A DNA stretch of 14,848 nt from Desulfobacteraceae bacterium. GTDB taxonomy: Bacteria; Desulfobacterota; DSM-4660; Desulfatiglandales; B25-G16. The position numbers and the translations under genes were made by a program. Below are positions 1-14,848 of this stretch, piece after piece (the stretch's first letter is position 1; the number at the start of each line of letters is the position of its first letter). The stretch spans positions 1-14,848 of the forward strand of contig DAOVDY010000001.1 in the NCBI GenBank assembly GCA_030669265.1. Reading direction: 5' to 3'. The notes below the pieces were generated by a model. That model saw only the letters and a list, made by a program, of their open reading frames with translations, was not told where the DNA came from and ran no database searches.

Positions 1-590
1 CTGCTCTTCCGAATTTGTTCTGATAGAAAACCACTCAAAAAGGCTACTAAATAAAAAGCAGCGACATTGACAAGAATCATATAAAAAATTTCACTACTCT
101 GGTACTCTTGGGCATAAGGGAAACGGTAGCCAATAGGGTTAATCAATCCATAGTAATTTAAATCAAGAAATGCACCATAGAGAATGCTGCTAAAAGAAGC
201 TATTATCATGCCTCCATAACGATAGAGGATTATTCCCCCTGAGATTATGTTCAATAAATACAGAAAGGAGAATATGCTTTCAATGCCGCCTGTTGTATAG
301 ATAATGGCTGTTATGAATATGGTATCGATAAGAAACTGAAGATAGGCAAACTTGAAAAGATTTTTTATGTACTTAAGTGAAACTATATAAAAAAATGTGA
401 GGAAATAGACTAAGGCAATAAGGAAGTAGTGGGCATTTAATATCTCGCCAAAATAGGTCTTTGTTTCCCTTACCTGAATTACAATCGCCACTCCTAAGAG
501 GAGGGAAACAAATCCCACCCTCAGAAACATCAATAATTGAAGGCGGGAAAGGGTCTCTTTTTGGTCAAGGCCTCTATCCGTTTTGACCAT
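1..590 (-). CDS. pilS: PilS-type sensor histidine kinase, N-terminal membrane part (runs off the left edge)
   Basis: Reading leftward from the ATG at 590-588, the frame stays open to the window edge (196 codons seen), so only the sensor part is present. The translation is very hydrophobic, with about six membrane segments near residues 24-40, 56-72, 84-99, 105-123, 127-143 and 168-190. It contains TGGIESIFSFLYLLNIISGG (99-118), which resembles the membrane sensor of PilS, the kinase that with PilR controls sigma-54 transcription of pilin. The kinase core (HisKA, HATPase) would lie outside the window. The gene starts 11 nt after the pilC stop, so the two are probably co-transcribed, and the order pilC-pilS is common in Desulfobacterota. 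No strong ribosome binding site is visible. An internal ATG at codon 21 is possible but would cut into the first membrane helix. PilS family is likely; which gene PilR controls here cannot be seen. Confidence 0.82.
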   Translation of the reverse strand, partial: MVKTDRGLDQKETLSRLQLLMFLRVGFVSLLLGVAIVIQVRETKTYFGEILNAHYFLIALVYFLTFFYIVSLKYIKNLFKFAYLQFLIDTIFITAIIYTTGGIESIFSFLYLLNIISGGIILYRYGGMIIASFSSILYGAFLDLNYYGLINPIGYRFPYAQEYQSSEIFYMILVNVAAFYLVAFLSGFLSEQIRKS

Positions 591-601
591 AATTGTTTGA
601 G

Positions 602-1810: not shown

Positions 1811-1863
1811 GATTCGCCCTCCGGTCTATTTATATTAAATTTATTCAGCAGTTATTAAAAATT

Positions 1864-1892
1864 AGCTTAATTATGTTCAGAGGTCATGTCAA
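1864..1892 (-). promoter_or_regulatory. Candidate sigma-70-type promoter for pilC-pilS
   Basis: On the minus strand there is a perfect TTGACA (1892-1887), a 17-nt spacer and TAAGCT (1869-1864), a poor -10 match. It lies about 55 nt upstream of the pilC start. The call rests on the perfect -35 and the need for a promoter in this divergent gap. Confidence 0.4.
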
Positions 1893-1990
1893 GAAATCTC
1901 TTTTATTTTTACAATTAGTCCCTAAAATAAAAGGATTTTTAAATAATTCTCAAACTAGTCCGTCGGAAAATATTTTTTTAAACCGAGGGC

Positions 1991-2018
1991 TTGACATTTT
2001 TATTTTAGTCATTATCAT
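1991..2018 (+). promoter_or_regulatory. Promoter of groES-groEL
   Basis: TTGACA (1991-1996), a 16-nt spacer and TATCAT (2013-2018) give a strong sigma-70-type promoter about 40 nt upstream of groES. No CIRCE operator (TTAGCACTC-N9-GAGTGCTAA) and no clear sigma-32 -10 element (CCCCAT) are present in 1811-2056. HrcA control of the usual kind is therefore not supported. Confidence 0.65.
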
Positions 2019-2059
2019 TTTTAGGTATTTGTAATTTCAAACGAAAAAAAGGAGGAATG

Positions 2060-2350
2060 ATGAAAATTCAGCCACTGCACGACCGGGTAATTGTAAAAAG
2101 AGTTGAAGATGAAGAAACAACCAAAGGTGGTATCATAATTCCTGATACGGCCAAGGAAAAGCCAATGGAAGGAGTAGTTGTTGCTGTTGGAAGCGGAAAG
2201 ACTGGAGAAGAGGGAGAAAAAAAGATACCTTTAGAGGTTAAGAAAGGCGATAGAGTCTTGTTTTCCAAATATGCTGGAACTGAGATAAAAATAGATGGCG
2301 AAGACCACCTTATCATGAAAGAAGAAGATATTATTGCTATTGTTAAATAA
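2060..2350 (+). CDS. groES: Co-chaperonin GroES (Hsp10)
   Basis: This 96-residue protein is full length for GroES, the heptameric lid that caps the GroEL cage in the ATP-driven folding cycle in the cytoplasm. It begins [14 protein letters not shown]. The mobile loop that binds GroEL is at about 17-32, with the GGIIIP motif at 23-28. [15 protein letters not shown] follows. Two ATG codons lie in tandem (2057 and 2060). I chose the second because GGAGG at 2051-2055 leaves only 1 nt before the first ATG but 4 nt before the second, and family members usually begin with a single Met before K-I/V-x-P-L-H-D-R. groEL follows after 37 nt with its own strong ribosome binding site, the usual two-gene heat-shock operon. 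Confidence 0.97.
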
Positions 2351-2387
2351 TTTTTTTAATTTTTAAAATCTCAAGGAGGATTTAATT

Positions 2388-4031
2388 ATGGCAGCAAAGG
2401 AAATTATGTATGATTCCAAGGCCAGGGAATTAATATTGAAAGGCATAGACACACTGGCTGAGGCGGTTAAGATAACTCTTGGCCCAAAGGGAAGGAATGT
2501 TATTTTAGAAAAATCATGGGGATCACCCACTGTTACCAAGGACGGCGTTACCGTGGCTAAAGAGATAGAGCTCGAAGATAAGTTTGAAAACATGGGCGCT
2601 CAGATGGTCAAAGAGGTTGCCTCTAAGACATCAGACGTAGCAGGGGATGGAACGACAACAGCTACTCTATTGGCTCAATCAATCTACCGTGAAGGTGCAA
2701 AGCTTGTCGCAGCAGGCGTTAATCCTATGGCCCTCAAGAGAGGTATTGAAAAGGCGGTAGATACTGTAGTAGATGAACTGAAAAAGATGTCCAAAATAAC
2801 AAAAGAGCAGCAAGAAATTTCTCAGGTAGGCACAATCTCGGCAAACAATGATCAGACTATAGGAAATATTATTGCTGAGGCCATGGCAAAGGTTGGCAAA
2901 GAAGGGGTTATCACTGTTGAGGAGGCAAAAAGTATGGAGACAACCCTCGAGATTGTCGAGGGAATGCAATTTGACAGAGGTTATCTTTCCCCCTACTTTG
3001 TAATGGATGCGGAAAAGATGGATGCCTCCTTAGAAGAGCCTTATATACTGTTACACGAAAAAAAGATCAGCAACATGAAAGATATGGTTCCCCTGCTTGA
3101 GCAGATCGCCAAGATGGGAAAACCTCTCTTAATCATAGCTGAGGATGTAGAGGGTGAGGCCCTTGCTACTCTGGTGGTTAACAAACTGAGAGGGACAATA
3201 AAAATAGCAGCTGTTAAGGCGCCTGGCTTTGGAGATAGGCGTAAGGCCATGCTTGAGGATATCGGTATCCTCACAGGAGGTAAGGTGATCTCAGAAGACC
3301 TTGGTCTTAAACTGGAGAATGTAAGCACAACTGACCTTGGCACAGCAAAAACCGTCAATATCGATAAAGACAATACAACTATTATTGATGGTGGGGGAAG
3401 CAGAAGTGATCTGGAAGGAAGGGTAAAACAGATCAGGACTCAGATAGATGATACCACCTCTGACTATGATAGAGAAAAATTGCAGGAAAGGCTGGCCAAG
3501 TTGATTGGCGGTGTTGCCGTTATTAATGTCGGAGCTGCAACAGAGACAGAGATGAAGGAAAAGAAGGCAAGGGTTGAGGATGCCCTCAATGCTACCAGGG
3601 CAGCAGTAGAAGAAGGGATCGTTCCTGGTGGCGGTATTGCCTTTATCAGATGCATTTCAGCCTTATCAAAGCAAAAATTGGAGGGAGACGAACAGCTTGG
3701 AGTAAATATAGTCAAAAGATCTTTAGAAGACCCGGTACGTCAGATTGCAAACAATGCTGGCTTAGAAGGATCAGTTGTGGTGGAAAAGGTGAAAGAAGAA
3801 AAAGGTGCCTTTGGTTTGAATGCTGAGACAGGTGAATATGAAGATCTCATCAAGGCTGGAATCATTGATCCAACCAAAGTTACACGATATGCCCTTCAAA
3901 ATGCCGCTTCTGTGGCTGCCCTTATGCTCACTACCCAGGCTATGGTAGCTGAAAAACCGAAAGAAGAAAAAGAAATGCCAGCAATGCCTCCAGGAGGTGG
4001 CTACGGTGGTGGAATGGGTGGAATGATGTAA
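2388..4031 (+). CDS. groEL: Chaperonin GroEL (Hsp60)
   Basis: At 547 residues this is a typical full-length group I chaperonin, the 14-mer ATPase folding cage that works with GroES. Equatorial ATP-site motifs are LGPKGRNV (31-38), KDGVTVAKE with Asp52, and [10 protein letters not shown] (86-95) with Asp87. The third catalytic aspartate, Asp398, lies in [15 protein letters not shown] (396-410). The apical domain contains [11 protein letters not shown] (195-205). The C-terminus is the usual Gly-Met-rich tail ([12 protein letters not shown]). The start has AAGGAGG about 8 nt upstream. It is the second gene of groES-groEL and is followed by a strong intrinsic terminator. Nothing is missing or unusual, and a single groEL is expected to be essential. 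Confidence 0.99.
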
Positions 4032-4064
4032 TTGTTATAAAAAATAGCTGGAATTTTCCCCCTG

Positions 4065-4097
4065 AGGCGACTAATTACTAATTGGTCGCCTTTTTTT
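4065..4097 (+). terminator. Intrinsic terminator after groEL
   Basis: AGGCGAC (4065-4071) pairs with GTCGCCT (4085-4091), and the stem can extend through a T-G wobble and AATTA/TAATT. It is followed directly by a T run (4091-4097). It starts 33 nt after the groEL stop and separates the heat-shock operon from comF. Confidence 0.88.
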
Positions 4098-4098
4098 A

Positions 4099-4128
4099 TG
4101 TTTAAATAAAGATAAAATAGGCTATAAT
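4099..4128 (+). promoter_or_regulatory. Candidate promoter for comF
   Basis: A perfect -10 TATAAT lies at 4123-4128. The -35 (TGTTTA or GTTTAA around 4099-4105) is weak. It would give a leader of about 100 nt to the comF start. That leader holds the palindrome CCATATGG but no riboswitch I can recognise. Confidence 0.4.
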
Positions 4129-4234
4129 GGATTTCGAGACTTCGCCCCACTATTCCATATGGGTGGCATAAACTGATATTTCCAAAAAAATATGATGTTT
4201 CAATAACTTAGAGAATTTCCGAGATAATATATTG

Positions 4235-4972
4235 ATGAAATTCCTTTCCCAGTTAATTGACATTTTCTATCCTCCACGCTGCCATATCTGCCGTCAATTC
4301 TTATCTACTGATGAAAGGTTTTCCTCCTCATTTCATTTATGTAATAATTGTTTAGCTGGCCTCATCCCTATCACTCATCCGATGTGCACTATTTGCGGTG
4401 TGCCTTTTTCAACCTCAAGAGGACCAGATCATCTCTGTGAAAATTGTCTTCGTAAAAGGCCTTGGTACGATTTTCTCCGATGCCCATATCTTTACTCAGG
4501 TCCACTTATGGAATCCATACAAAGATTCAAATACAATGTAGAAATTCACCTAATGTCCCCTCTTGGACAGCTACTTTCCTCCTTTGCCAAAGAATGGATG
4601 CCCAACCTTAAGGATTTTGTAATTATCCCTGTACCCCTCCACAGGCGCAGACTCAGAGAAAGGGGCTTCAATCAGAGTCTTTTGTTAGCCAGGGTATTGG
4701 CCTCAGACCTTGGAAATCAATTAGATTACCTCTCCCTTATTAGGAAAAGATATACACAAGCCCAGACAGGTCTGAAAAAAGGAGAGAGGAGAAAAAATGT
4801 CAAAGATGCCTTTTCCATTATACATCCTGAGGCTATCAAGCATAAAAAGATACTATTGGTTGATGATGTCTTTACAACCGGGCATACCGTGAATGAATGC
4901 GCACGAACCCTGAAAAAATCAGGGGCGACAACTGTTATTTGTCTCACACTGGCCAGAGCTCTGATTAATTGA
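4235..4972 (+). CDS. comF: ComF family phosphoribosyltransferase-like protein
   Basis: At 245 residues this matches ComF, a cytosolic protein linked to DNA uptake in naturally competent bacteria and widespread elsewhere with an unclear role. The N-terminus holds four CxxC pairs (Cys16/19, 36/39, 51/54, 68/71), enough for two zinc knuckles. Next come RFKYNVE and the family motif PVPLHRRRLRERGFNQS (132-148). RYTQAQTGLKKGERRKNVKDAF (172-193) is the typical Q-T-x-L-x-x-x-x-R-x-x-N motif. The phosphoribosyltransferase loop ILLVDDVFTTGHT is at 206-218. An in-frame TTG lies directly before the ATG; I prefer the ATG at 4235. The ribosome binding site is weak. It may be the first gene of a run with the MinD-like gene 103 nt later. 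Type IV pilus genes are close by, so a DNA-uptake role is conceivable but unproven. Confidence 0.9.
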   Translation: MKFLSQLIDIFYPPRCHICRQFLSTDERFSSSFHLCNNCLAGLIPITHPMCTICGVPFSTSRGPDHLCENCLRKRPWYDFLRCPYLYSGPLMESIQRFKYNVEIHLMSPLGQLLSSFAKEWMPNLKDFVIIPVPLHRRRLRERGFNQSLLLARVLASDLGNQLDYLSLIRKRYTQAQTGLKKGERRKNVKDAFSIIHPEAIKHKKILLVDDVFTTGHTVNECARTLKKSGATTVICLTLARALIN

Positions 4973-5017
4973 AGATAAAATGGTAAATTAGATACGCTGT
5001 TACACATCCAAAAAAGG

Positions 5018-5054
5018 TTGCAATCCATATAATCAACTGTTAATTTAATTGCAA
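5018..5054 (+). promoter_or_regulatory. Inverted repeat and possible promoter before the MinD-like gene
   Basis: The 103-nt gap between comF and the next gene has TTGCAAT (5018-5024) and its inverse ATTGCAA (5048-5054), with a TATAAT (5028-5033) between them. No -35 sits at the correct distance from that TATAAT. TTGCAA with a 17-nt spacer to TAATTT is an alternative. No terminator is seen, so read-through from comF is also possible. Confidence 0.25.
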
Positions 5055-5075
5055 TTTATTTTCCTGGAATAGCCA

Positions 5076-6035
5076 ATGATTGAACAAGGGCAAACAAAAA
5101 AACCGAGAGCAGTAAATAATCATATACTTGCAATTGGTGGTGGAAAAGGGGGTACTGGCAAGAGCCTTATTACCGCAAGTTTAGGCATCTGTTTGGCTGA
5201 TAGAGGCAATGGTGTTCTTCTCATAGATGCTGATTTGGGAACAGCTAATCTCCATACCTTTTTAGGATTAGAACCTCCAAAAATAGGTCTATCAGATTTT
5301 GTTACTAAGAGAGAATCAACTATTTCTGGTGTTATAACAAAGACAGGGATAAATAATCTTAAGCTAATTTCAGGGGCTAAAGATATGATAGGGATTGCCA
5401 ATCTATCCTATGGACAAAAGATGAAGGTATTGAACAATATTAAAAAATTGAATTATAGATACATCTTATTAGATCTTGGCCCTGGTACATCCTTTAACAT
5501 CCTCGACTTTTTTTTGATTTCCCATTGTGGCATCCTTATAACATCACCTGAACCCACATCTATTGAGAATACATATCGCTTTACAAAGGGGCTTCTTTTT
5601 CGCTATTTAAGAAAGATAATCAGTAAAAAAGTGGTGAGATCCCTAATAGACAATGGGATCAGGCAGAGGAATGGACACAAATTCGAGTCAGTCTTTGATC
5701 TCATGGAAGCTATAGAAAAGATCGAACCAAGGCTTGGAGATACTATATCAAGCTATCTCTCAACCTTAGATATCAAATTAATTGTTAACCAGGTACGCAC
5801 AAGTAAAGACAGGGCCATAGGACAAAAGATGGCTATTGCGGTCAAGAAATACTTTGGTATCCCGATTGATTTCTTGGGAAATGTAAGCCATGATAATAAA
5901 GTTAGTAAAGGCTTACTCCAGAAAAAACCCCTCATGGACTATTTGCCACATTCTAAGGCATTTAAGGAACTTACCGAAATTACTCAAAAAATATCGCCTC
6001 GTTACCAATTAGGATTAGGCTTCCCTGCTGATTAA
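5076..6035 (+). CDS. MinD/ParA-family (SIMIBI) ATPase of unknown cargo
   Basis: This 319-residue P-loop ATPase carries the deviant Walker A of the MinD/ParA family, GGKGGTGKS (22-30), with both the signature Lys24 and Lys29. The next motif, LLIDADLGTANLHTFLG, is at 48-64 and the Walker B-like ILLDLGPG at 130-137. The opening and the DADLGTAN motif recall FlhG/YlxH and MinD more than Soj-type ParA. Such ATPases dimerise on ATP and place protein complexes at cell poles or on membranes. No amphipathic MinD-type tail is obvious at the C-terminus, which ends in LGLGFPAD. Residues about 175-240 form a basic, less conserved insert before a MinD-like core resumes at IKLIVNQV. No minC, minE, flhF or flagellar gene is adjacent. 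The next gene, 26 nt downstream, is a J-like/HTH protein that is likely its partner. The start ATG has only a weak ribosome binding site. Confidence 0.85.
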   Translation: MIEQGQTKKPRAVNNHILAIGGGKGGTGKSLITASLGICLADRGNGVLLIDADLGTANLHTFLGLEPPKIGLSDFVTKRESTISGVITKTGINNLKLISGAKDMIGIANLSYGQKMKVLNNIKKLNYRYILLDLGPGTSFNILDFFLISHCGILITSPEPTSIENTYRFTKGLLFRYLRKIISKKVVRSLIDNGIRQRNGHKFESVFDLMEAIEKIEPRLGDTISSYLSTLDIKLIVNQVRTSKDRAIGQKMAIAVKKYFGIPIDFLGNVSHDNKVSKGLLQKKPLMDYLPHSKAFKELTEITQKISPRYQLGLGFPAD

Positions 6036-6061
6036 ATTTTTAACTAATTATCTGGCAGTTT

Positions 6062-6727
6062 ATGAAAAAATTAACCGAGCAAGACTATTACAATCTACTT
6101 GACATTTCTCCTAAGGCCTCTTTTGAGGAAGTTCGATCTGCCTACGATCAAGCCATGAGCATATACTCAACCGATTCTATTTCCACCTACACTCTTTTTA
6201 CACAAAAGGAAAGGGATCTCATCCTTTCCCGTTTGGCTGAAGCGTACAAAACCCTGACTAACAGCCAGCTCAGAAAAGAATACAATCATTTTTTGATTGA
6301 AAGGGGTGAGCTTTCTCCTCAAGAAATCGGATTTTCATCCCTGGAAGATTCTGATATCGCCAAAGGTAAGCTTCTGGAGGTAAGCGTAGAAAGTCTTACC
6401 CAGAAACAACAAAAGGCAAAGGATGAGCGCGTACCTTCCAATAAAAACCTTAGCCTCTTCGACAGCCAAATTTCTGTGACTGGGAAAAGCATTAAAACAA
6501 TTAGGACATCCAAAGAAATGAGTCTTGAAGAAATATTCAAACAAACGAATATATCACGAGAAACATTAGAAGATATTGAGGAAGAACGTTTTGAAAAGCT
6601 CCCAGCCCTTGTCTATCTTAAAGGCTTTTTAAAGGCCTACGCTAAAATACTACAAGTTAATCAGACCGAAATGGTGGATGGATACGTGAAAAGGTATCTC
6701 GAATGGAAGAATACCTATCAAAAATAA
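6062..6727 (+). CDS. Degenerate J-like domain plus RodZ-type helix-turn-helix protein
   Basis: This 221-residue protein has two recognisable parts. Residues 7-78 follow the DnaJ J-domain pattern (DYYNLLDISPKASFEEVRSAY, then LAEAYKTLTNSQLRKEYNHF). The HPD tripeptide needed to stimulate Hsp70 is replaced by Ser-Thr-Asp (36-38), so it is probably a structural relic. Residues 141-210 form an HTH_25-type Cro-like domain (GKSIKTIRTSKEMSLEEIF, then LPALVYLKGFLKAYAKIL), as at the N-terminus of RodZ. A polar linker (about 85-140) joins them. There is no membrane segment, so it is cytosolic, unlike RodZ. It lies 26 nt after the MinD-like ATPase and its end overlaps hldE by 25 nt, so all three are likely co-transcribed. 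RodZ HTH domains bind MreB, so this one may bind protein rather than DNA. The exact role is unknown. Confidence 0.8.
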   Translation: MKKLTEQDYYNLLDISPKASFEEVRSAYDQAMSIYSTDSISTYTLFTQKERDLILSRLAEAYKTLTNSQLRKEYNHFLIERGELSPQEIGFSSLEDSDIAKGKLLEVSVESLTQKQQKAKDERVPSNKNLSLFDSQISVTGKSIKTIRTSKEMSLEEIFKQTNISRETLEDIEEERFEKLPALVYLKGFLKAYAKILQVNQTEMVDGYVKRYLEWKNTYQK

Positions 6728-7203
6728 AAACCCAATCAGCAATGAAAAAGGTAGCGGAAAAAGCGAAAGGGGAAGGCAAAAAAATAGTTTTTACCAATGG
6801 CTGTTTTGATATCCTTCATCAAGGTCACGTGCGTTATCTTTCTGAAGCCAAGACGTGTGGAGATTACCTGATAGTTGGCATAAATAGCGACGAATCTATT
6901 AGAAACATTAAAGGAAATAATCGTCCCTTTATGACTGAGGGAGCAAGGGCGGAATTGCTTGCCGCTCTCTGTTTCGTTGATGGGGTGGTTATTTTTACTG
7001 AGGAAGACCCCCTTGCCATCATAAAATATCTCCAACCTCATATTTTAGTAAAAGGTGCAGATTGGGCTGAGGATAAAATTATAGGGGCTGAATTCATTAA
7101 AAAAACAGGGGGGGATGTTAAACGAATACCTCTTATCCCAAATATTTCCACTTCCAATATTATTCGCCGAATTATTGATCTTAATTCCGCTCAAAATAGC
7201 TAA
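6703..7203 (+). CDS. hldE: D-glycero-beta-D-manno-heptose 1-phosphate adenylyltransferase
   Basis: This 166-residue protein is the stand-alone C-terminal domain of HldE (also called RfaE2 or HldC). It transfers AMP from ATP to heptose 1-phosphate, giving ADP-D-glycero-beta-D-manno-heptose for the lipopolysaccharide inner core. It carries the nucleotidyltransferase opening KIVFTNGCFDILHQGHVRYL (27-46), with the HxGH ATP motif at 39-42 (HQGH). LVKGADW and the C-terminal ISTSNII are also typical. The kinase domain of bifunctional HldE is absent and must be encoded elsewhere. The ATG at 6703 gives the usual length but lies inside the previous gene (25-nt overlap). An in-frame ATG at 6742 would just spare the core. 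Neither has a clear ribosome binding site, so translational coupling is likely. The gene supports an outer membrane with heptose-containing LPS. Confidence 0.93.
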   Translation: MEEYLSKIKTQSAMKKVAEKAKGEGKKIVFTNGCFDILHQGHVRYLSEAKTCGDYLIVGINSDESIRNIKGNNRPFMTEGARAELLAALCFVDGVVIFTEEDPLAIIKYLQPHILVKGADWAEDKIIGAEFIKKTGGDVKRIPLIPNISTSNIIRRIIDLNSAQNS

Positions 7204-7250
7204 GGCAAGGCAGATACCTTCTCAATATAAAGAGATTATTTTTAGTATGT

Positions 7251-7327
7251 GCGCCCATAGCTCAGCTGGATAGAGTAACGGACTACGAATCCGTAGGTCG
7301 CAGGTTCGAATCCTGCTGGGCGCACCA
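7251..7327 (+). tRNA. tRNA-Arg (anticodon ACG), CCA encoded
   Basis: The 77 nt fold as a normal tRNA. The acceptor stem is GCGCCCA/TGGGCGC, the D arm GCTC-AGCTGGATA-GAGT, and the anticodon stem ACGGA/TCCGT with loop CTACGAA. The anticodon ACG is at 7285-7287. The T arm is GCAGG-TTCGAAT-CCTGC, followed by discriminator A and an encoded CCA (7325-7327). A34 would be changed to inosine by TadA to read CGU, CGC and CGA. It lies 47 nt after hldE. Its last 20 nt, from the T loop to CCA, are repeated at 7405-7424. Confidence 0.98.
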
Positions 7328-7404
7328 TTTCGTTCTGAAACTTTACGGCCTTCAGTGAGCAATTCCCCAGTCGCAAAGTGAGCTTGCCCTGAGCGTGCCG
7401 AAGG
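7328..7404. other. 77-bp GC-richer insert between two copies of the tRNA-Arg 3' end
   Basis: By hand count this stretch is about 53% G+C, while the flanking intergenic DNA is clearly AT-rich. Its right half holds GCTTGCCCTGAGCGTGCCGA, which continues AAGGG. This resembles the short dispersed CCCTGAGC...GAAGGG repeats seen in many bacterial genomes. The left half has a related inverse (GGCCTTCAGTGAGC), so an imperfect hairpin is possible. It has no coding potential. It looks like a scar or a small intergenic repeat unit. Confidence 0.55.
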
Positions 7405-7424
7405 GAATCCTGCTGGGCGCACCA
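7405..7424 (+). repeat. Direct repeat of the tRNA-Arg 3' end (second copy)
   Basis: These 20 nt are identical to 7308-7327, the T-loop-to-CCA part of tRNA-Arg, offset by 97 bp. This is the form an att site takes when a tyrosine integrase uses a tRNA 3' end. However, no integrase gene is present and only 77 bp lie between the copies. It may be a scar from a lost element or a simple duplication. Confidence 0.85.
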
Positions 7425-7779
7425 GTAAAAAAATCAATCAACCACATCAAAGCATCTATTACCAGCTCTTAGATTATCTTAAGCCTCGATGAAGTCCCAT
7501 AATACAGCAATACTCTCTCTCTAAATTCAGAATGAGGACTTAAAATAGGCAATGTAGTTCAGTTCTATGTTACACCTCACAAAATGAGCAAACGGTAAAT
7601 CAGTATAATTTTGTTCTTATTGATTTTTGAATTGAGAATATTTTTCCTTCAGTGTATGTTCTTTTCTAAAAATAATTACTTAAATCTTAATACTGACTTA
7701 AATAGAGGGTCCTTACCTTTATTGGCGTTTCATGTTGAAAGGAACTATCTTTGATCGTTAAAAGAAAGGAGAGGCTATT
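7425..7779. other. Gene-free AT-rich stretch between the tRNA repeat and the DUF59 gene
   Basis: I see no convincing coding region, tRNA or terminator in these 355 bp. The sequence is AT-rich and contains a short direct repeat (ACTTAAAT, twice around 7677-7703). The DUF59 gene needs a promoter here, but no good -35/-10 pair stands out. Its ribosome binding site AAGGAG is at 7766-7771. The stretch could be decayed flanking DNA of the element implied by the tRNA repeat. Confidence 0.5.
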
Positions 7780-8082
7780 ATGGAAAACAATCCTTCAGTT
7801 GAAGATGTTGCGCAGGCGATAGCGAATGTGATGCATCCAGCTATAGATCGAAGCCTAATGGATTTAGGAATGATCCGGGATATTGCTTTGACAGGAACCA
7901 CCGCCTCTTTAACCCTATTACTCCCATTTCCAGGCATACCTATCTTGGCTTTCTTAGAGAAAAGCCTGGAAGAATCAGTAAAAGCGTTGGGAATAGATCT
8001 TGAGACAAAAATACAGAATATGAATCAAGAAGAAATTCAGAATTTTCTTGCTATGGAGAAAGAGGCCTGGAAGGGATTATAA
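7780..8082 (+). CDS. DUF59/MIP18-family protein without cysteine
   Basis: This 100-residue protein matches the DUF59 (MIP18, SufT/PaaD-like) domain, which also forms the N-terminal part of Mrp/ApbC iron-sulfur carriers. The pattern V-x-H-P-x-I-x-x-S-L-x-D-L-G-M-I-x-x-I (18-35) corresponds to the usual D-P-E-x-x-x-x-I/L-x-x-L-G-x-V. It is followed by a beta-rich segment (ASLTLLLPF) and an amphipathic helix (LEKSLEESVKAL). The strongly conserved T-P-x-C-P loop is replaced by LPFPGIP (47-53), and the whole protein has no cysteine. Direct cluster or metal ligation through that residue is therefore ruled out. The start has AAGGAG 8 nt upstream. It lies directly before parS and parA, whose ATPase fold is related to Mrp's second domain; this may be coincidence. 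Family call is good, function unknown. Confidence 0.75.
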   Translation: MENNPSVEDVAQAIANVMHPAIDRSLMDLGMIRDIALTGTTASLTLLLPFPGIPILAFLEKSLEESVKALGIDLETKIQNMNQEEIQNFLAMEKEAWKGL

Positions 8083-8091
8083 ATGTATAAA

Positions 8092-8107
8092 TGTTTCACG
8101 TGAAACA
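8092..8107. promoter_or_regulatory. parS: parS centromere site
   Basis: TGTTTCACGTGAAACA is a perfect 16-bp palindrome (18 bp with the flanking A and T). It agrees with the widely conserved bacterial chromosomal parS consensus. It lies 140 nt upstream of parA, in the gap after the DUF59 gene. ParB should load here and spread as a CTP-dependent clamp. No second copy is seen in the window. Being palindromic and beside parA, it may also bear on parAB expression. Confidence 0.95.
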
Positions 8108-8246
8108 TTCGGTCGCGCTCATTGAAAGTTGTAATTTGTCTATTGAAACAAGAAATGAGCAACGCAAATAAATACAACAAATAATAAGGTTGTTTATTTC
8201 TTCTGAAGGCCGATACCTTAATTTCTGTAAAAATAGCATCGTACCT

Positions 8247-9029
8247 ATGGGATCAATAATATCTATAGTGAATCAAAAGGGAGGGGTTGGTAAAACTATC
8301 ACAGCTGTAAATCTATCTTCATCTATTGCTGCTGCTGAAAAAAGATGCCTTTTAGTAGATTGCGATCCTCAGGGAAATGCAACTACCTCTTTGGGAATCA
8401 ATCCCTCAAGCGTTGAGCCAAGCCTTTACGACGTAATATTGGGGGGAAGCATGGATGACAAAGTCATTCTTGAAACAGAAATCCCCATGCTTAATCTTAT
8501 TGGAGCCAATCCTGATTTATTTGGGGCGGAAGTAGAGATGTTTTCTAAAAATAACAAAGAGTATCTTTTACACAATGTCTTGTCTCAATTTAAAGATAAA
8601 TACGATTATATATTTATTGACTGTCCCCCTTCTCTTGGGTTTCTGACACTTAATGCTCTTACTGCGGCTGATTTTTTTCTTGTACCACTTCAATGCGAAT
8701 ATCTTGCTATGGAAGGATTAACCCAATTGCTTAATACGGTAAGGTTGGTTAAAAAAGGGCTTAATCCATCACTTATAATGATGGGCATTTTGTTAACAAT
8801 GTTCGATAAACGAAACAATCTATCACATCAAGTAGCGGATGAGGTTCGCCGCCATTTTGGAGCCTCTGTGTTTCAATCAGTTATCCCACGCAATGTTAGC
8901 TTAAGTGAGGCATCAAGCCATGGGAAGCCAATCATTCTTTATGATATTCGATCAAAAGGGGCCCAGAGTTATTTAGAGCTTGCAAAGGAAATAATCTTAA
9001 AAGGAGGGGATAAAGGTGGCCAAGCGTAA
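8247..9029 (+). CDS. parA: Chromosome-partitioning ATPase ParA (Soj)
   Basis: This 260-residue protein is a Soj-type ParA without an N-terminal HTH domain, as in chromosomal loci. It holds the deviant Walker A KGGVGKT (11-17) after IISIVNQ, the A' motif LLVDCDPQGNATTSLG (35-50), and IFIDCPPSLGFLTLNAL in the Walker B region. ATP-bound ParA dimers coat the nucleoid and are released by ParB bound at parS, which drives origin segregation. The frame is open back to a TTG at 8190, but those 19 extra residues are unlike any ParA N-terminus. I start at the ATG at 8247, which gives MGSIISIVNQKGG. No clear ribosome binding site precedes it. The 3' end overlaps parB by 14 nt, so translation is coupled. 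Confidence 0.95.
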   Translation: MGSIISIVNQKGGVGKTITAVNLSSSIAAAEKRCLLVDCDPQGNATTSLGINPSSVEPSLYDVILGGSMDDKVILETEIPMLNLIGANPDLFGAEVEMFSKNNKEYLLHNVLSQFKDKYDYIFIDCPPSLGFLTLNALTAADFFLVPLQCEYLAMEGLTQLLNTVRLVKKGLNPSLIMMGILLTMFDKRNNLSHQVADEVRRHFGASVFQSVIPRNVSLSEASSHGKPIILYDIRSKGAQSYLELAKEIILKGGDKGGQA

Positions 9030-9858
9030 GGCTCTCGGAAGAGGACTTTCAGCCTTATTTCCAGAAACAGTTATTTCAGAAACTGATAAGGGTTTTTTCT
9101 ACTGCCCTATTGAATCCATTTCTCCTAATCCACACCAACCGAGACAAAATTTTGGCGACTCTGAGCTGACAGAATTAGCAGATTCTATAAAGGAGAAAGG
9201 CCTCATCCAACCCATATTGGTCAGCAAAGCAAAGGATGGATATCAACTTATTGTAGGAGAGAGGCGTTGGCGTGCAGCTCAAAAGGCAGGTCTTGATAAA
9301 ATACCCGCATGGATAAGGGATGTATCTCCTGCAGAGACATTGGAATTAGCACTGATTGAGAATATCCAGCGAAAAGATCTTAACCCTATCGAGGAATCAT
9401 CAGCTTACCAGGAATTGATGCAAAAGTTTCATCTCACACAAGAAGCCCTTTCAAAAAGGGTTGGAAAAGATCGTTCCACCATTGCCAATTTCTTAAGACT
9501 GTTGAAGCTTCCTGCTATTATTCAACAGGATCTTATAGATGGTCAATTGACCACAGGCCATGCAAGAGTTCTTGTCACTATTGAATCTCCTTTAGCCCAA
9601 AAAGAAGTCAGGGATTTTATCATAAAGAAATCTCTCTCTGTTCGTCAGACAGAGGACTTGGTTAAAAAGATTTTGGCACCAAAAAAGCCAAAAAGCCCAA
9701 AAACCGAAACAGAATACTACATAGATTCTTTATCCAAAGATCTTCAAAGGTCATTAGGCACTAAAGTAATTATAAAACGTAAAGGTAAAAAAGGTAGAAT
9801 TATAATCGAGTTTTATTCTGATGAGGATTTAGGCCGTTTGATTGATCAATTATTGTAG
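9016..9858 (+). CDS. parB: Chromosome-partitioning protein ParB (CTP-dependent DNA clamp)
   Basis: This 280-residue protein has the full ParB layout. A basic N-terminal ParA-stimulating segment (KRKALGRGLSALFP, 3-16) comes first. The CTP-binding ParB/Srx domain begins at ISPNPHQPR and includes GERRWRA (81-87) and ENIQR (115-119). The parS-reading helix-turn-helix is LTQEALSKRVGKDRSTIANF (140-159). A lysine-rich linker and a C-terminal dimerisation domain (about 233-280) follow. It starts with GTG at 9016, supported by AAGGAGG at 9001-9007. It overlaps parA by 14 nt at its start and the convergent plsY by 9 nt at its end. With parA and the parS at 8092-8107 it forms a complete ParABS system. 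mnmG/rsmG, the common neighbours of parAB, are not present here. Confidence 0.97.
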   Translation: MAKRKALGRGLSALFPETVISETDKGFFYCPIESISPNPHQPRQNFGDSELTELADSIKEKGLIQPILVSKAKDGYQLIVGERRWRAAQKAGLDKIPAWIRDVSPAETLELALIENIQRKDLNPIEESSAYQELMQKFHLTQEALSKRVGKDRSTIANFLRLLKLPAIIQQDLIDGQLTTGHARVLVTIESPLAQKEVRDFIIKKSLSVRQTEDLVKKILAPKKPKSPKTETEYYIDSLSKDLQRSLGTKVIIKRKGKKGRIIIEFYSDEDLGRLIDQLL

Positions 9859-10473
9859 TGTTGATTTCTGCCATCTTCTTTCATTTCCTCGGATTAATCT
9901 TCGAATATTTGCTCTATGCTGGAATGTAATTAAGAAAGACATTATCAAAGAAAGGATGATTATAACATTGGGATGACCCATGAAATACAAGAAAAGAGGC
10001 ATGGCAAAGGATGCTACTATTGATCCTAAGGAGATATACCTCCAAAGAGCGACGAAGATAAAAAATATCACACCACAAAATAAGCATGAAATCGGGGAAA
10101 TAGCCAAAAAAATTCCAAGACATGTAGCTACTCCTTTTCCCCCTTTAAAACGATTATAAATTGAGAATTGGTGGCCTAACAAGGCCGCGAGACCAATCAT
10201 TCCCTTTAAGGCCTCGTTTATTTCTGCTGATGACCCTAAAAGATAATGGAAAAATACAACAGGAATGAAACCCTTTAACGTATCTGCCAAAAGGGTGACG
10301 ATGCCCCATTTGAGGCCAACCTCACGAGCAACGTTAGCGGCTCCAATATTTCCGCTTCCCGCTTTGGTTATATCTAATTTAGCCACCTTTTGACTGATCA
10401 ACAGACCAAAAGGAATTGAACCTAAGAGATATGCAGCTGTTAATAACGCTATGAAAAGTACCCACATCTCCAT
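9850..10473 (-). CDS. plsY: Acyl-phosphate:glycerol-3-phosphate acyltransferase PlsY
   Basis: This 207-residue integral membrane protein matches PlsY, which transfers an acyl group from acyl-phosphate to glycerol 3-phosphate. The product is lysophosphatidic acid, in the first step of phospholipid synthesis at the inner membrane. Family motifs are YLLGSIPFGLLI (15-26), AGSGNIGAANVAR (38-50) and GHQFSIYNRFKGGKGVAT (100-117). About five hydrophobic helices are seen, and the C-terminus is basic (QHRANIRRLIRGNERR). The ATG at 10473 is preceded by GGA only. A second in-frame ATG two codons later has GGAG before it, so the true start may be 10467. Its stop overlaps the end of parB, a convergent arrangement with no room for a terminator between them. 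Confidence 0.95.
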   Translation of the reverse strand: MEMWVLFIALLTAAYLLGSIPFGLLISQKVAKLDITKAGSGNIGAANVAREVGLKWGIVTLLADTLKGFIPVVFFHYLLGSSAEINEALKGMIGLAALLGHQFSIYNRFKGGKGVATCLGIFLAISPISCLFCGVIFFIFVALWRYISLGSIVASFAMPLFLYFMGHPNVIIILSLIMSFLITFQHRANIRRLIRGNERRWQKSTLQ

Positions 10474-10507
10474 TCATTCCAAAAAAGCAAGAAAAAGTGT
10501 TTTTAAA

Positions 10508-10535
10508 TTGAAATTGCCTGGTATATAGTTATAAA
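10508..10535 (+). promoter_or_regulatory. Candidate promoter for the DUF3842-CooT pair
   Basis: TTGAAA (10508-10513), a 16-nt spacer and TATAAA (10530-10535) each match the sigma-70 consensus at five of six positions. The leader would be about 80 nt. An inverted repeat AATAAAC-AG-GTTTATT (10567-10582) lies in that leader, where a regulator could bind. Confidence 0.45.
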
Positions 10536-10621
10536 AAATTTCCCAAGCCACTGATATTACTATTACAATAAACAGGTTTATTAAATGTTTCAATCCAAAT
10601 CTTTAACTAAAGGGGGTCTTC

Positions 10622-11041
10622 TTGAGTTTATTAATGGTTATGGACGGACAAGGGGGTGGAATAGGAAGAGTTATAATAAAAAAATTACGGGATGCCTTTG
10701 GTGAAGAGGTAGAAATACTTGCCCTGGGGACAAATTCTGTTGCTACCTCCCAAATGATGAAGGCTGGTGCTAATCGAGGGGCGACTGGAGAAAATGCAAT
10801 CATCAACATGGCTCCTGAGGTTGATATCATAATTGGTCCATTAGCTGTAATCATGGCTAATTCTATGATGGGTGAAGTAACTCCAGGGATATCCCAGGCC
10901 ATCTCCTCAAGTAAGGCCTTTAAAATATTAATCCCATTGACCCAGGAGAGGGCTAAGATCGTGGGTGTATCTGGTGAACCTCTTCCCCATCTTATTGATC
11001 AAATTATTGAAATTATTAAAGAAGGAGAAAATAATGTGTGA
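10622..11041 (+). CDS. DUF3842 family protein
   Basis: This 139-residue protein matches what I recall of the DUF3842 family, small proteins of anaerobic bacteria with no known role. It opens with a hydrophobic strand and a glycine-rich loop, LMVMDGQGGGIGRVII (4-19), followed by a second strand and a small-residue loop, ILALGTNSVATSQMMKAGAN (32-51). This is a Rossmann-like start that suggests nucleotide binding. Later motifs are GATGENAI, IIGPLAVIMANSMMGE and GEPLPHLIDQIIE near the end. It starts with TTG at 10622, supported by the AGGGGG site at 10611-10616 with a 5-nt spacer. An ATG four codons on would break the first strand. Its end overlaps the CooT gene by 8 nt, so the two are translationally coupled. 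A link to nickel or CO metabolism is inferred from that pairing only. Confidence 0.85.
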   Translation: MSLLMVMDGQGGGIGRVIIKKLRDAFGEEVEILALGTNSVATSQMMKAGANRGATGENAIINMAPEVDIIIGPLAVIMANSMMGEVTPGISQAISSSKAFKILIPLTQERAKIVGVSGEPLPHLIDQIIEIIKEGENNV

Positions 11042-11228
11042 GGCATCAGCTTATGTTATTCAGGATGGAAAAGAGACGCTTATTTTAGAAAATGTAGATG
11101 AGTTACATAAAGAAGGTGACACAATTAAGATGACAAATCTTTTCGGAGATCAAAAGGTTCTTGAGGCTCAAATAAAAATGATTTCCTTTGTTGATAACAA
11201 AATAATCCTAGAGAAAGCCAAAGAATAG
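11034..11228 (+). CDS. cooT: CooT family nickel-binding protein
   Basis: This 64-residue protein begins Met-Cys-Glu-Ala and continues through the motifs LILENVDELHKEGDTI (16-31) and NLFGDQK (35-41). It fits the CooT family. CooT of Rhodospirillum rubrum binds nickel as a dimer through Cys2 and helps mature CO dehydrogenase. Cys2 is present here. The frame is open further upstream, but the ATG at 11034 has AAGGAG 6 nt before it and gives the family N-terminus. It overlaps the DUF3842 stop (ATGTGTGA), which indicates translational coupling. No CO dehydrogenase gene lies in the window, so the client is not shown. The presence of CooT suggests that the organism has a nickel CO dehydrogenase, as acetogens, sulfate reducers and syntrophs do. 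Confidence 0.85.
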   Translation: MCEASAYVIQDGKETLILENVDELHKEGDTIKMTNLFGDQKVLEAQIKMISFVDNKIILEKAKE

Positions 11229-11241
11229 GTAATGTCCGGTG

Positions 11242-11274
11242 ATAATTGCCAATACTCCGTCGCGTGTCAATTAT
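11242..11274. terminator. Weak hairpin between convergent genes
   Basis: ATAATTG (11242-11248) can pair with CAATTAT (11268-11274) in the 49-nt gap between the convergent cooT and glycosyltransferase stops. The stem is AT-rich and has no T run on either side, so its role as a bidirectional terminator is doubtful. It is the only candidate in the gap. Confidence 0.3.
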
Positions 11275-11277
11275 TGT

Positions 11278-12180
11278 CTACATTTGAGTCGTTAATCTTT
11301 TAACTTTTCGACTATCAAACCATTCAACTGATTGACCACTCAACGTATAGCCATCGCTATTAATCCTTTTGGGAAGTGAGAGGTAAAAATGTCCCTCTTT
11401 TAATTTTCCTCTTTTAATACATCCCTCGCCATATATCCTGCATTTGATAGATAATTCCTCCATAGCTTGGCTTATTTGATCTTGAGAAAGTATTCCACTT
11501 TCGATCAGTTTAACTATAGCCTTAATCCTAAAGCGGTCCATACCAGAGAATCGCCGAGAGAGCTGATCATCATGTCCTCCTTCTTTAACAACCAACCCCT
11601 TATCAATTAAGTAAATAGGGTACCTGCACGATATCCTCAACCACAGATCAAAGTCCTCAGCTGCTGGAAGGGTTTCATCAAAAAGACCAACATCTTCAAA
11701 AAGAGACCTCTTTATAATCACGCTTGATGGGCTAACCAGGCATAACTTTAACGATTGCGCAAATATATTTCCAGATGGCTTTTTATGTCTTTTCTTTTGG
11801 TTGACTCGTCTACCATTTTTTATCCATATTTCTTCTGTCTGGCAGGCTACAGTATTAGGATTTTGATCAATAAATTCTATCTGAACAGATAGCTTTTCAT
11901 TAAGCCAATAATCATCTGAGTCTAAAAATGCAATCCAGGGTGCTGTTGAATTCTTTATTCCTCTATTTCTAGCTGCTGATACACCCATGTTGGCCGACTG
12001 TCTTATATATTTTATCGAGGACATATATTTGGACAGAGCCTTATTGGTATTATCAGTTGATCCATCATCAACTACAATTATCTCGAAATCTCTAAAACCC
12101 TGGTTAAGCACTGATACCACTGCCCTCACCACCTTCTCAGACCTGTTAAATGTTGGAATTATTACACTAACCGTGGGCAT
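11278..12180 (-). CDS. Family 2 glycosyltransferase (GT-A fold)
   Basis: This 300-residue protein has a typical GT2 start, VSVIIPTFNR (4-13), the nucleotide-binding VVDDGSTDNT (36-45) and the metal-binding DxD region FLDSDDYW (85-92). Next comes AAEDFDLWLRIS, which carries the acidic residue typical of the acceptor side. There is no membrane segment, so it probably acts at the cytosolic face. It would transfer a sugar from a nucleotide sugar onto a glycan or lipid. Neither donor nor acceptor can be read from the sequence. The residues after about 215 are a less conserved helical tail. It starts 3 nt after the stop of the IspH-UbiA fusion, so it is the last gene of that operon, and it converges on cooT. 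Its location beside a prenyltransferase suggests a prenylated lipid acceptor, but this is only inference. Confidence 0.9.
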   Translation of the reverse strand: MPTVSVIIPTFNRSEKVVRAVVSVLNQGFRDFEIIVVDDGSTDNTNKALSKYMSSIKYIRQSANMGVSAARNRGIKNSTAPWIAFLDSDDYWLNEKLSVQIEFIDQNPNTVACQTEEIWIKNGRRVNQKKRHKKPSGNIFAQSLKLCLVSPSSVIIKRSLFEDVGLFDETLPAAEDFDLWLRISCRYPIYLIDKGLVVKEGGHDDQLSRRFSGMDRFRIKAIVKLIESGILSQDQISQAMEELSIKCRIYGEGCIKRGKLKEGHFYLSLPKRINSDGYTLSGQSVEWFDSRKVKRLTTQM

Positions 12181-12183
12181 TCT

Positions 12184-13914
12184 CTAAAACAATTCCCATA
12201 TAAATGCAAGTAACCCTGCCAAAAGGAGATTGACTTCAGCAATAGATTGCAAGCGATATCCATCTCTCATCCACCCCTTATTGTAAGCTTCAAGATAAGA
12301 AAACGAAATAAAGAAACAAATAATAAAAAAATAACCTAGATTTGAAGCCATCCCTATAGCTGTTGATAATAGTAAAAATATACCAAAAAGACTGTTTAAT
12401 AATAGTAAAAGCTTAATAGCCCTTTCCTCCCCCAAGGCGACTGGAAGGGTTTCCTTGCCAACTATTAAATCCCCGTGTATATTGAGGATGTCAAAGAGGC
12501 CAGACCGTATGTAACACATAGAGGAGACAAAAAAGAAAGAGATCAAAACACCAGGCCAAAAAGGCTTCGGCCATCCGATAATAGGAAGTAGCGAGCTGAT
12601 TGTACCCCAAGCCAAGGCCTCTGCTATGTTTTTTGAACCAGGAAGGTCCTTTATTTTTCCATAACGCCCCAGATATCCAAGTCTCCATGGTATTATCGGC
12701 ATGCTATAGACTAAGCCAAGGATAGTCAAAGCAAGAAAAAGCAGAAACTGGGCTATTCCCAAAGAAAGTGAGAGAATTAGGCCTGCACATATTCCTATCA
12801 GAGAGGTAATTATAAGAAAAGTTTTGTGCGTGGTATAGAAAAGAGCTGTACTAGGATCGTTATATGCACTAGCCTCTTTGTCAAGAAAACGGTTCAAGAC
12901 ATGCATGCTAAAAACATACAATAGGGCAAGAAATGGATGGATGAAATCAGCATTTCCTCTTGATAGAATAAGCCCGGCATAGGTAAGAAAAAACGCCCCT
13001 ATTGCCTCAGGAAGGGTTATTTTAACTAAAAATTGAAAACTCTCTTTTAATACACTCCCCAGTGGATATTGCCTGGTTTTACCCATGGTTTTCAATCTAT
13101 CGGTAACTTTTCTGATCATCCAATTGGGTGTTGAGGCACCGGCTGTAACTCCAGCTGTTTCTGTTGATGAAAACCAGGAATTCTGTAGCTCCTTCTCGGT
13201 CTCAATATGAAACGTAGGTTTACCTGTTGACCTTGATATCTGATATAGCCGTTTGGTATTACCACTGTTATATCCACCAACTATTACCATGCTATCAACC
13301 TCAGAGGCTAATAATCTGACTTCTCTCTGTCTTTTATACGTTTCGTCGCAGATAGTATCAAATATTATAGCATCTGGATAACGACCCTTGATAGCATCTA
13401 TTATTTCTCTGTAGGAATCTACATCTTGTGTTGTTTGAGATACCAGAATTAATTTTTTCTTGTCAGAAAGTTTTTCAACATCTTCAACAGAACTTATAAT
13501 GATACCTTGGCCTTTGCTATAACCCATCAAACCAATAACCTCCGGATGTTTGGCATCTCCAAATATGACAGGTGTATAGCCTTTGTTGCTATATTTTTTT
13601 ATTATTGCCTGTACCTTTGCCACTCTCGGACATGTTGCATCAATTAACTTGAGATTCGAAGATCGTATCTTTTCTCTTTCGGTCGGTGTAATACCATGAG
13701 CCCTGATAATTACCCTTCCTTTGTCATGCGTATCAATATTGTCTTTGACATCCACCCCTTTAGATCGAAGAAGATCTAATACCTGTTGATTATGGATTAT
13801 AGGCCCATATGTGAAAAGCTTTCCATCACCTTTGTTTGCCTCAGATAGTGCAATTTCCATTGCCCTTCTTACTCCCATGCAAAATCCAGCAGTTTTTGCT
13901 AATTTAATCTTCAC
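12184..13914 (-). CDS. ispH: IspH (HMBPP reductase) fused to a UbiA-family prenyltransferase
   Basis: This 576-residue frame joins two full enzymes. Residues 1-279 are IspH, which makes IPP and DMAPP from HMBPP in the last step of the MEP pathway. It has all three [4Fe-4S] cysteines (GFCMGV Cys12, DATCP Cys95, DTICDETYKRQ Cys189) plus His41, His73 and KHPEV (His123, Glu125). Residues 290-576 are a UbiA-type membrane prenyltransferase with about eight hydrophobic segments. Its first Asp motif is NRFLDKE (341-347, variant of NDxxD). The second is FDILNIHGDLIVGKETLP (474-491). UbiA enzymes attach prenyl chains to aromatic or other acceptors; the substrate here is unknown. I chose the GTG at 13914, since GGAGG lies 9 nt upstream and MKIKLAKTAGFCMGV is the normal IspH start. 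The in-frame ATG at 13941 lacks these supports. The gene overlaps dusB by 11 nt and is 3 nt from the glycosyltransferase. Confidence 0.93.
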   Translation of the reverse strand: MKIKLAKTAGFCMGVRRAMEIALSEANKGDGKLFTYGPIIHNQQVLDLLRSKGVDVKDNIDTHDKGRVIIRAHGITPTEREKIRSSNLKLIDATCPRVAKVQAIIKKYSNKGYTPVIFGDAKHPEVIGLMGYSKGQGIIISSVEDVEKLSDKKKLILVSQTTQDVDSYREIIDAIKGRYPDAIIFDTICDETYKRQREVRLLASEVDSMVIVGGYNSGNTKRLYQISRSTGKPTFHIETEKELQNSWFSSTETAGVTAGASTPNWMIRKVTDRLKTMGKTRQYPLGSVLKESFQFLVKITLPEAIGAFFLTYAGLILSRGNADFIHPFLALLYVFSMHVLNRFLDKEASAYNDPSTALFYTTHKTFLIITSLIGICAGLILSLSLGIAQFLLFLALTILGLVYSMPIIPWRLGYLGRYGKIKDLPGSKNIAEALAWGTISSLLPIIGWPKPFWPGVLISFFFVSSMCYIRSGLFDILNIHGDLIVGKETLPVALGEERAIKLLLLLNSLFGIFLLLSTAIGMASNLGYFFIICFFISFSYLEAYNKGWMRDGYRLQSIAEVNLLLAGLLAFIWELF

Positions 13915-14848
13915 CAGCCATCTCCTCCCTGATGGATCCAAAATATTTGTTTAAGATAGAGATCAGTTTTTCTCTTCCATCTATCTCTGGAATAAAACCC
14001 CTTAATAATCTTCTATTTGGAAGACCCTTTGTGTATAAAAGCAGTAAGCCTTTTATAATGCGTGTTGCCCTATTTTCTCTAAAATATTCTATAAGAAGCG
14101 AATAATGATCCATGATTAACTGATATCTTTCATTAAGGTTCGGGATTTCAAAAGTTCCCTTATTTTCCATATCTAAGATCTGCTTGAAAATCCATGGATT
14201 AGTTAATGCTGCCCTGCCAATCATAACACCATCACAGTTTGTTTCAGAGCGCATCTTTAAGGCTAAAGAAGGCCTTGTTATATCACCACTACCAATAACA
14301 GGAATTTTCACTACCTTCTTTATCTTGGCAATTAAGGTCCAGTCAGCATTTCCATAAAATCCTTGACTGGCAAAACGTGGATGAACGGTAATCCCATCAG
14401 CTCCACTGTCTTCAATTATACTCGCAACCTCAAGGGCATTCGCCTCTTCTGGTGACCAGCCAGCCCTGATCTTTACTGTCAATGGGATGGGGCTACTTTT
14501 TCGCACAGCAGAAAGAATCTTTTCCACTCTCTTTGGCTCCCGCATCAGGGCTGCTCCTGACCCTGTTTTAATAACTTTTTTTACTGGACACCCCATATTA
14601 ATATCAACAATATCCAATCCTTTTTCAGCTACTATCTGCGCCGATAGTGCCATTGTATCCGGGTCAGATCCAAATAGTTGGGCACCAACGGGTCTTTCAG
14701 AAGGATGACTTTCGAGAAAGGCTTGGGTTTTTGCCTGCCCCCTGGAAAGACCAATAGCACTGATCATCTCTGTAATAACAAGGCCGGCTCCCATTTTTTT
14801 AACAATAAGGCGAAATGGGAGGTTTGTTTTTCCTGACATAGGGGCCAT
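13904..14848 (-). CDS. dusB: tRNA-dihydrouridine synthase DusB (5' end outside the window)
   Basis: The 314 residues seen match the FMN-dependent Dus family, which reduces uridines in the tRNA D loop. Visible motifs (numbered from the window edge) start with APMSGKTNLPFR (2-13). The catalytic Cys87 is in NMGCPVKKV. Lys126 is in VKIRAGW, His156 and Arg158 in VHPRFASQGFYGNADW, and PVIGSGDI (183-190) binds FMN. The C-terminal helical domain is complete. DusB proteins normally have about 15-20 residues before the A-P-M-S/A-G motif, so the ATG at the very edge is internal and the real start lies beyond 14848. It is the upstream gene of the minus-strand operon and overlaps the IspH-UbiA start by 11 nt. 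The DusB subtype rests on overall similarity and on the G-C-P-V-K-K-V motif. Confidence 0.92.
   Translation of the reverse strand: MAPMSGKTNLPFRLIVKKMGAGLVITEMISAIGLSRGQAKTQAFLESHPSERPVGAQLFGSDPDTMALSAQIVAEKGLDIVDINMGCPVKKVIKTGSGAALMREPKRVEKILSAVRKSSPIPLTVKIRAGWSPEEANALEVASIIEDSGADGITVHPRFASQGFYGNADWTLIAKIKKVVKIPVIGSGDITRPSLALKMRSETNCDGVMIGRAALTNPWIFKQILDMENKGTFEIPNLNERYQLIMDHYSLLIEYFRENRATRIIKGLLLLYTKGLPNRRLLRGFIPEIDGREKLISILNKYFGSIREEMAGED

Follow-up and report, generated by a model that had tools for sequence, protein, structure and literature searches.

Introduction

IspH is the last enzyme of the methylerythritol phosphate (MEP) pathway and is usually regarded as soluble. Rao et al. reported 47 IspH-UbiA proteins of sulfate reducers in 2015 (PMC4746011). 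Here we analyse a gene of this type in a 14,848-nucleotide stretch of a Desulfobacteraceae bacterium (contig DAOVDY010000001.1, positions 1 to 14,848; the window), which encodes an IspH reading into a UbiA-like half. The fusion is real, ordinary for its bacterial group and in print since 2015. In the accessible parts of their paper, Rao et al. term IspH an essential enzyme, class the UbiA half as PT_UbiA_5 of unknown function, note separate UbiA/MenA proteins and state that a full-length active fusion protein was not obtained. They suggested membrane localisation with high local isopentenyl diphosphate (IPP) and dimethylallyl diphosphate (DMAPP).

Two other systems bear on the membrane half, both taken from the accessible parts of the respective reports. 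The Mg ligands of AfUbiA are N68, D72, D198 and D202; N68A and D72A abolish binding of geranyl diphosphate (GPP), binding becomes 45-fold weaker with D198A and 21-fold weaker with D202A. E. coli MenA changed at the equivalent residues loses its function wholly or nearly so (PMC4106721). UBIAD1 is a UbiA-fold protein that binds 3-hydroxy-3-methylglutaryl coenzyme A (HMG-CoA) reductase and senses geranylgeranyl diphosphate (GGPP) (PMC9314443).

We find that catalytic motif residues of the membrane half are lost in several related lineages, while its fold, its fusion to IspH and purifying selection remain. No description of this erosion was found in the literature searched, where the fusion itself is already published.

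The fusion protein and its IspH half

The coordinates of all features are collected in Table 1. The sequence AGGGAGGAG lies directly upstream of the GTG start. The frame across the junction between the two halves is judged genuine from sequence comparison, because the best 96 database matches (P0001-P0096; 60-94% identity over 89-100% of the query) all carry both Pfam domains at near-full query coverage. Proteins spanning both domains make up 118 of the 120 matches listed (best 120 of 5826). The preliminary description of an IspH reading in frame into a UbiA-type domain was thus borne out. In the structure model the junction block 281-290 has a predicted local distance difference test (pLDDT) score of 60.

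The IspH half scores 320.2 bits against Pfam LYTB (cut-off 24.5) and 297.4 bits against TIGR00216 (cut-off 187.85), and it is complete with its three cluster cysteines, as had been proposed. Further active-site residues are H41, H73, H123, E125, T161, S217, N219 and S261. The cysteines and this H/H/H/E/T/S/N/S set, which we assume to be the relevant one, are kept in 114/114 distinct fused and 47/47 distinct single IspH domains. By these scores and residues the protein belongs to IspH/LytB, and 4-hydroxy-3-methylbut-2-enyl diphosphate reductase activity with a 4Fe-4S cluster is predicted. Judged by its conservation, IspH is clearly the business end of the fusion, which is also the sole IspH match found in its own genome (63% complete).

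The membrane half of the window copy

Residues 284-576 form a hydrophobic domain that scored 32.8, 33.9 and 34.9 bits against Pfam UbiA (PF01040) in three scans (cut-off 34.2). Comparison of the fused family with a set of ordinary UbiAs by hhalign gave a probability of 96.8 and an E-value of 2.8e-10 at 13% identity, and a UbiA membrane fold is present in the confidently modelled second half. When PDB sequences were searched with the profile of the UbiA half, the single match had E 0.1 and no UbiA was among the results.

As a yardstick we used 32 ordinary UbiAs: 30 loci of the phylum, E. coli UbiA and a MenA-like protein from the source genome. Positions were mapped by motif order, with E. coli N67/D71/D75 corresponding to AfUbiA N68/D72/D76 and E. 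coli D191/D195 to AfUbiA D198/D202. Five positions are each invariant (32/32) in this set: one Asn and two Asp in motif 1 and a pair of Asp in motif 2. MenA/MqnP/UbiA quinone prenyltransferases are expected to have all five. The window copy keeps N341, D345 and D482, and the other two are replaced by S349 and N478. Where the canonical first motif is NDXXDXXXD, it reads NRFLDKEAS, with Ser as the last acid; the canonical second motif DXXXD (AfUbiA D198, D202) is represented by N478 and D482. The preliminary description had seen both Asp motifs in a UbiA that was complete; the fold and three of the residues hold, but S349, N478 and a Pfam score around the cut-off do not confirm it as worded. It had also taken the NRFLDKE variant as a hint of an unusual substrate. 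This idea is rejected, as Arg at the second place of motif 1 (NR for ND) occurs in 15/32 ordinary UbiAs. The true oddities are others: in motif 1 the third acid is replaced by Ser, in motif 2 the first acid is replaced by Asn, and related lineages have lost the motif-1 Asp altogether. Y403 and R470 are invariant in the fusions of two alignments (n=21, n=32).

The source genome holds one further UbiA (L001 on C133), unfused, with full motifs and 112.7 bits against Pfam, which we take from its motifs to be MenA-like. With this separate protein present and motifs that differ, a MenA/MqnP role for the fused half is disfavoured. The 30 phylum loci comprise two kinds of ordinary UbiA, split by both motifs: the first (L155-L167, L170, L171) has ND..D..D and an E. 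coli-like motif 2, and the second (L168, L169, L172-L184) has NR..D...D and a different motif 2. The second kind may presumably be the MqnP type of the futalosine route. Futalosine is the preferred route in Desulfobacterota according to the accessible part of a published report (PMC13386864).

Loss of motif residues across the fused family

Motif residues were counted in 112 of 114 distinct fusions; two with tails below 225 residues were dropped and near-copies were kept. The motif-1 Asn is kept in 96/112. The D345 position holds Asp in 88 and Glu in one, and the S349 position Asp in four and Glu in one. The N478 position is acidic in 31/112 (23 Asp, 8 Glu), and the D482 position is Asp in 111/112. 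Equivalents of AfUbiA N68/D72 are lost in 31/112 fusions with the domain still present; once seven rows of family f31, whose alignment is least sure, are left out, the motif-1 Asn or Asp is lost in 24/105. The counts hint at compensation, with loss of the motif-1 Asp set against retention of the motif-2 acid, but only two independent pairs lie on supported branches.

Selection was estimated by a simple counting method, in which many pairs were saturated (nan). Among close relatives of the window, the ratio of nonsynonymous to synonymous substitution rates (dN/dS) of the UbiA half is 0.17-0.20, indicating purifying selection. In the Thermodesulfobacterium family it is 0.16-0.47, clearly looser than for IspH (0.07-0.15).

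The Thermodesulfobacterium tail gave a weak hhalign match to the fused family (probability 37, E 0.00035) and none to ordinary UbiAs (0.2), and most pocket residues are also lost in these copies. Homology of the tail rests on gene position, motif-2 remnants and the predicted fold. A motif-2 series in L118, L122, L125 and L134/L135, running from QGDGFVGKETLP to QTDGFLPKNFLL, joins the eroded Thermodesulfobacterium tails to fuller relatives.

Distribution and copy number

The UbiA-half profile A2 matched 117/297 sampled genomes of the phylum and 84/198 genera. PF02401 (IspH) matched 278/297 and PF01040 286/297 of the same genomes. The A2 matches make up 120 rows. Frames of 500 amino acids or longer account for 108 of these, two of them with an in-frame TGA. 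Five others lie at contig ends and two contain stops; the remaining five are weak (E 2e-9 to 6e-4), lie in frames of 293-341 amino acids and are taken to be ordinary UbiAs. Seven further genomes of family f31, which by P0149 includes Thermodesulfobacterium hydrogeniphilum, were missed by A2, yet have a fused membrane tail. Wherever the locus is readable, the UbiA-like half is joined to IspH. The preliminary description would have been countered by a fusion already common and characterised, and this applies by half: it is common in Desulfobacterota and published, but the function of its UbiA half is uncharacterised in the accessible part of that publication (PMC4746011).

Beyond the phylum, the titles of 80 of 168 loci name Deltaproteobacteria, Desulfo-, Syntropho- or Thermodesulfobacteriota groups; the exceptions are 'Pseudomonadota bacterium' (two loci) and 'uncultured bacterium' (one locus). 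The UbiA-half matches listed (25 from a sequence search and 25 from a profile search) were fusions, short UbiA-only pieces and the weak ordinary UbiA P0153; the search scores only proteins sharing exact words, and absence of unfused relatives there is not proof. The contigs that hold the UbiA-only pieces are about 1-3.5 kb long, and the source records give several of the pieces the name IspH; we take them for cut fusions, though a few could be unfused.

Among the 117 genomes with a UbiA-half match, 109 have one IspH match, four have none and four have two. G135 and G271 combine the fusion with a second IspH match, which in G135 is an unfused frame of 373 amino acids on another branch (L141). 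In the IspH tree, some single IspH genes are nested within groups of fusions, namely L136 (G015), L150/L151 (G037, G233), L209 and L211/L212. The IspH of G015 ends without a tail; an N-terminal IspH fusion in this genome (608-amino-acid frame) was rejected, since the extra stretch resembles an over-long frame before IspH.

Role of the membrane half

On our reading the UbiA-derived membrane half is retained without a need for canonical chemistry; motif residues are lost while fold, fusion and purifying selection remain. We favour, with about even confidence, a family role other than canonical UbiA prenyl transfer, namely holding IspH together with IPP and DMAPP at the membrane. The membrane half would keep IspH and these products on the cytoplasmic side of the membrane, close to isoprenoid steps that are themselves membrane-bound, and the partly kept diphosphate pocket would bind a ligand in lineages such as that of the window. 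The simplest role that all could share would be to bring IspH to the membrane, and lineages that keep the pocket would also bind a ligand. The earlier proposal that the fusion would place IspH at the membrane is upheld as a reading, given the UbiA-type membrane domain in frame.

Several points weigh against this role. Of the four metal ligands of AfUbiA, three are retained in the window copy, and its pocket loops are strongly conserved, which fits an enzyme; all four AfUbiA-type ligands are present in 13/112 fusions (Glu counted as acid at the D198 position). The ligand positions are read from a profile alignment at the low identity given above, and the 30 phylum UbiAs were those with the highest PF01040 scores in the sampled genomes and hence lean towards the canonical. 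The model is least certain at the motif loops (pLDDT 57 for 341-350, 47-52 for 401-420 and 60 for 481-490) and therefore says nothing on active-site geometry. In UBIAD1, D236A raises activity, and D112G raises it with farnesyl diphosphate and lowers it with GPP and GGPP, as given in the accessible part of the report (PMC4398444); these mutants correspond by motif order to the two positions lost in the window copy, so loss of the acids there is no proof of inactivity. Finally, the nested single IspH genes, as possible secondary losses, point to a membrane half that is dispensable.

The window's own copy may still transfer a prenyl group, and an active prenyltransferase in its lineage is a serious rival. 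In such a bifunctional ('Rosetta stone') enzyme, as proposed by Rao et al. (PMC4746011), IspH would make IPP and DMAPP, the UbiA half would prenylate some acceptor with DMAPP or with a longer diphosphate, and lineages with broken motifs would have lost the second activity. The three retained motif residues, the invariant Y403 and R470 and the purifying selection on the UbiA half speak for it. Against it stand the 31 fusions that keep the domain after losing the N68/D72 equivalents, the replacement in the window of two further positions invariant in ordinary UbiAs, and the shared neighbours, which are partly annotated and among which no acceptor-pathway gene was noticed. On balance we regard it as possible, at a tentative level.

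A more specific form of the tether appears unlikely: in one large group of anaerobic bacteria, an eroded UbiA-derived module, no longer a prenyltransferase, would both tether IspH and sense prenyl diphosphates. It would be a bacterial, covalent equivalent of the pair UBIAD1 and HMG-CoA reductase, and its catalytic Asp motifs would have eroded several times independently. Quite unlikely, too, is a feedback sensor in which the UbiA-fold half, by analogy with UBIAD1 and its control of HMG-CoA reductase, would bind a downstream prenyl diphosphate and alter IspH activity or stability. Most pocket residues are gone from the Thermodesulfobacterium copies, and since D72A abolishes GPP binding in AfUbiA (PMC4106721, accessible part), copies without this Asp would need another binding mode. 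That an assembly or frame artefact joined two separate genes, a thought invited by a draft source genome in 273 contigs, is hardly credible and was rejected on the fused relatives in database matches, sampled genomes and loci: 109/113 matching open reading frames are fused and the other four are cut by contig ends (the window's own locus is repeated in this count), and fused-length frames in the one-contig genomes G038, G161, G214 and G282 are independent assemblies that speak against an artefact.

In a large part of Desulfobacterota, IspH comes with an attached membrane domain. Inside this single fused family the UbiA motifs grade naturally from near-complete to fully eroded, which makes it possible to ask directly what a UbiA fold does when it transfers no prenyl group, and whether flux through the MEP pathway is under control at the membrane.

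Gene neighbourhood

Neighbours were counted in loci L034-L113 with at least 700 bases on the side concerned. A co-directional dusB lies directly upstream of the fusion in 41/71 loci, and a co-directional glycosyltransferase directly downstream in 39/67. The glycosyltransferase is missing in 7/7 loci that lost the motif-1 Asp versus 11/42 that kept it (17 loci without a state, one with Glu); because the Asp-lost loci are close relatives, nothing is drawn from this.

Table 1. Features of the window considered in this work
Feature	Position	Strand	Description	Basis
IspH-UbiA fusion coding sequence	12184..13914	(-)	one open frame, 576 aa, GTG start, TAG stop	
IspH half, residues 1-283	13066..13914	(-)	cluster cysteines C12, C95, C189	Pfam LYTB, TIGR00216
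Junction, residues 279-300	13015..13080	(-)	end of IspH, helix 285-298, entry into first membrane helix	model secondary structure
UbiA-fold membrane half, residues 284-576	12187..13065	(-)		profile comparison, structure model
Motif 1 region N341-R-F-L-D345-K-E-A-S349	12868..12894	(-)	Asn and first counted Asp retained; Ser in place of the third acid	
Conserved cytoplasmic loop KIKDLPGSK, residues 420-428	12631..12657	(-)	typical of fused family	
Motif 2 region D475-I-L-N478-I-H-G-D482-L-I-V-G-K-E-T489	12448..12492	(-)	AfUbiA D198 position Asn, D202 position Asp	
dusB-like dihydrouridine synthase	13904..14848	(-)	probably cut by window end; stop overlaps fusion start by 11 bases	
Family 2 glycosyltransferase	11278..12180	(-)	ATG start, 3 bases past the TAG stop of the fusion	

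Downstream of the glycosyltransferase on the opposite strand, a DUF3842 gene overlaps a CooT-like frame (10622-11228, +), and a DUF3842-like cluster recurs in 31 compared loci. Elsewhere (6062-6727, +) the window encodes a 221-amino-acid protein that combines DnaJ at its N terminus (28.6 bits, cut-off 27.8) with the helix-turn-helix domain HTH_25 at its C terminus (67.6 bits), which seemed to us an unusual combination.

Relation to known systems

No later study of IspH-UbiA proteins was recognised in the literature searched, which left most subscription journals outside; beyond Rao et al. the term 'IspH-UbiA' was met there only within another paper's reference list. The window protein has the make-up of the Rao hybrids, with IspH N-terminal and a UbiA-like domain C-terminal in one chain. 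As far as that paper was accessible, the two also share the bacterial group, for the window judged from the names of near relatives, and the presence of separate UbiA/MenA proteins. The hybrids were credited with two DXXXD repeats (PMC4746011), whereas two of the five canonical positions are missing from the window copy, and more of them from some relatives. The IspH-RPS1 hybrids of anaerobes likewise join IspH to a large C-terminal partner, there ribosomal protein S1 (PMC4746011, accessible part).

Among ordinary UbiAs, L001 shares superfamily and genome with the fusion, but is unfused and has all ordinary motif positions. ApUbiA (4od4/4od5) and AfUbiA (4tq3/4tq4) are 10-15% identical and, unlike the fused half, free-standing. 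UBIAD1 with HMG-CoA reductase (8djk, PMC9314443, accessible part) resembles the window protein in that a UbiA-fold protein is physically tied to an isoprenoid-pathway enzyme; it differs as a separate eukaryotic protein of the mevalonate pathway that is not covalently joined and still makes menaquinone-4 (MK-4). UBIAD1, which binds its partner and senses GGPP, is a precedent for a UbiA fold that serves an enzyme of isoprenoid synthesis in this way.
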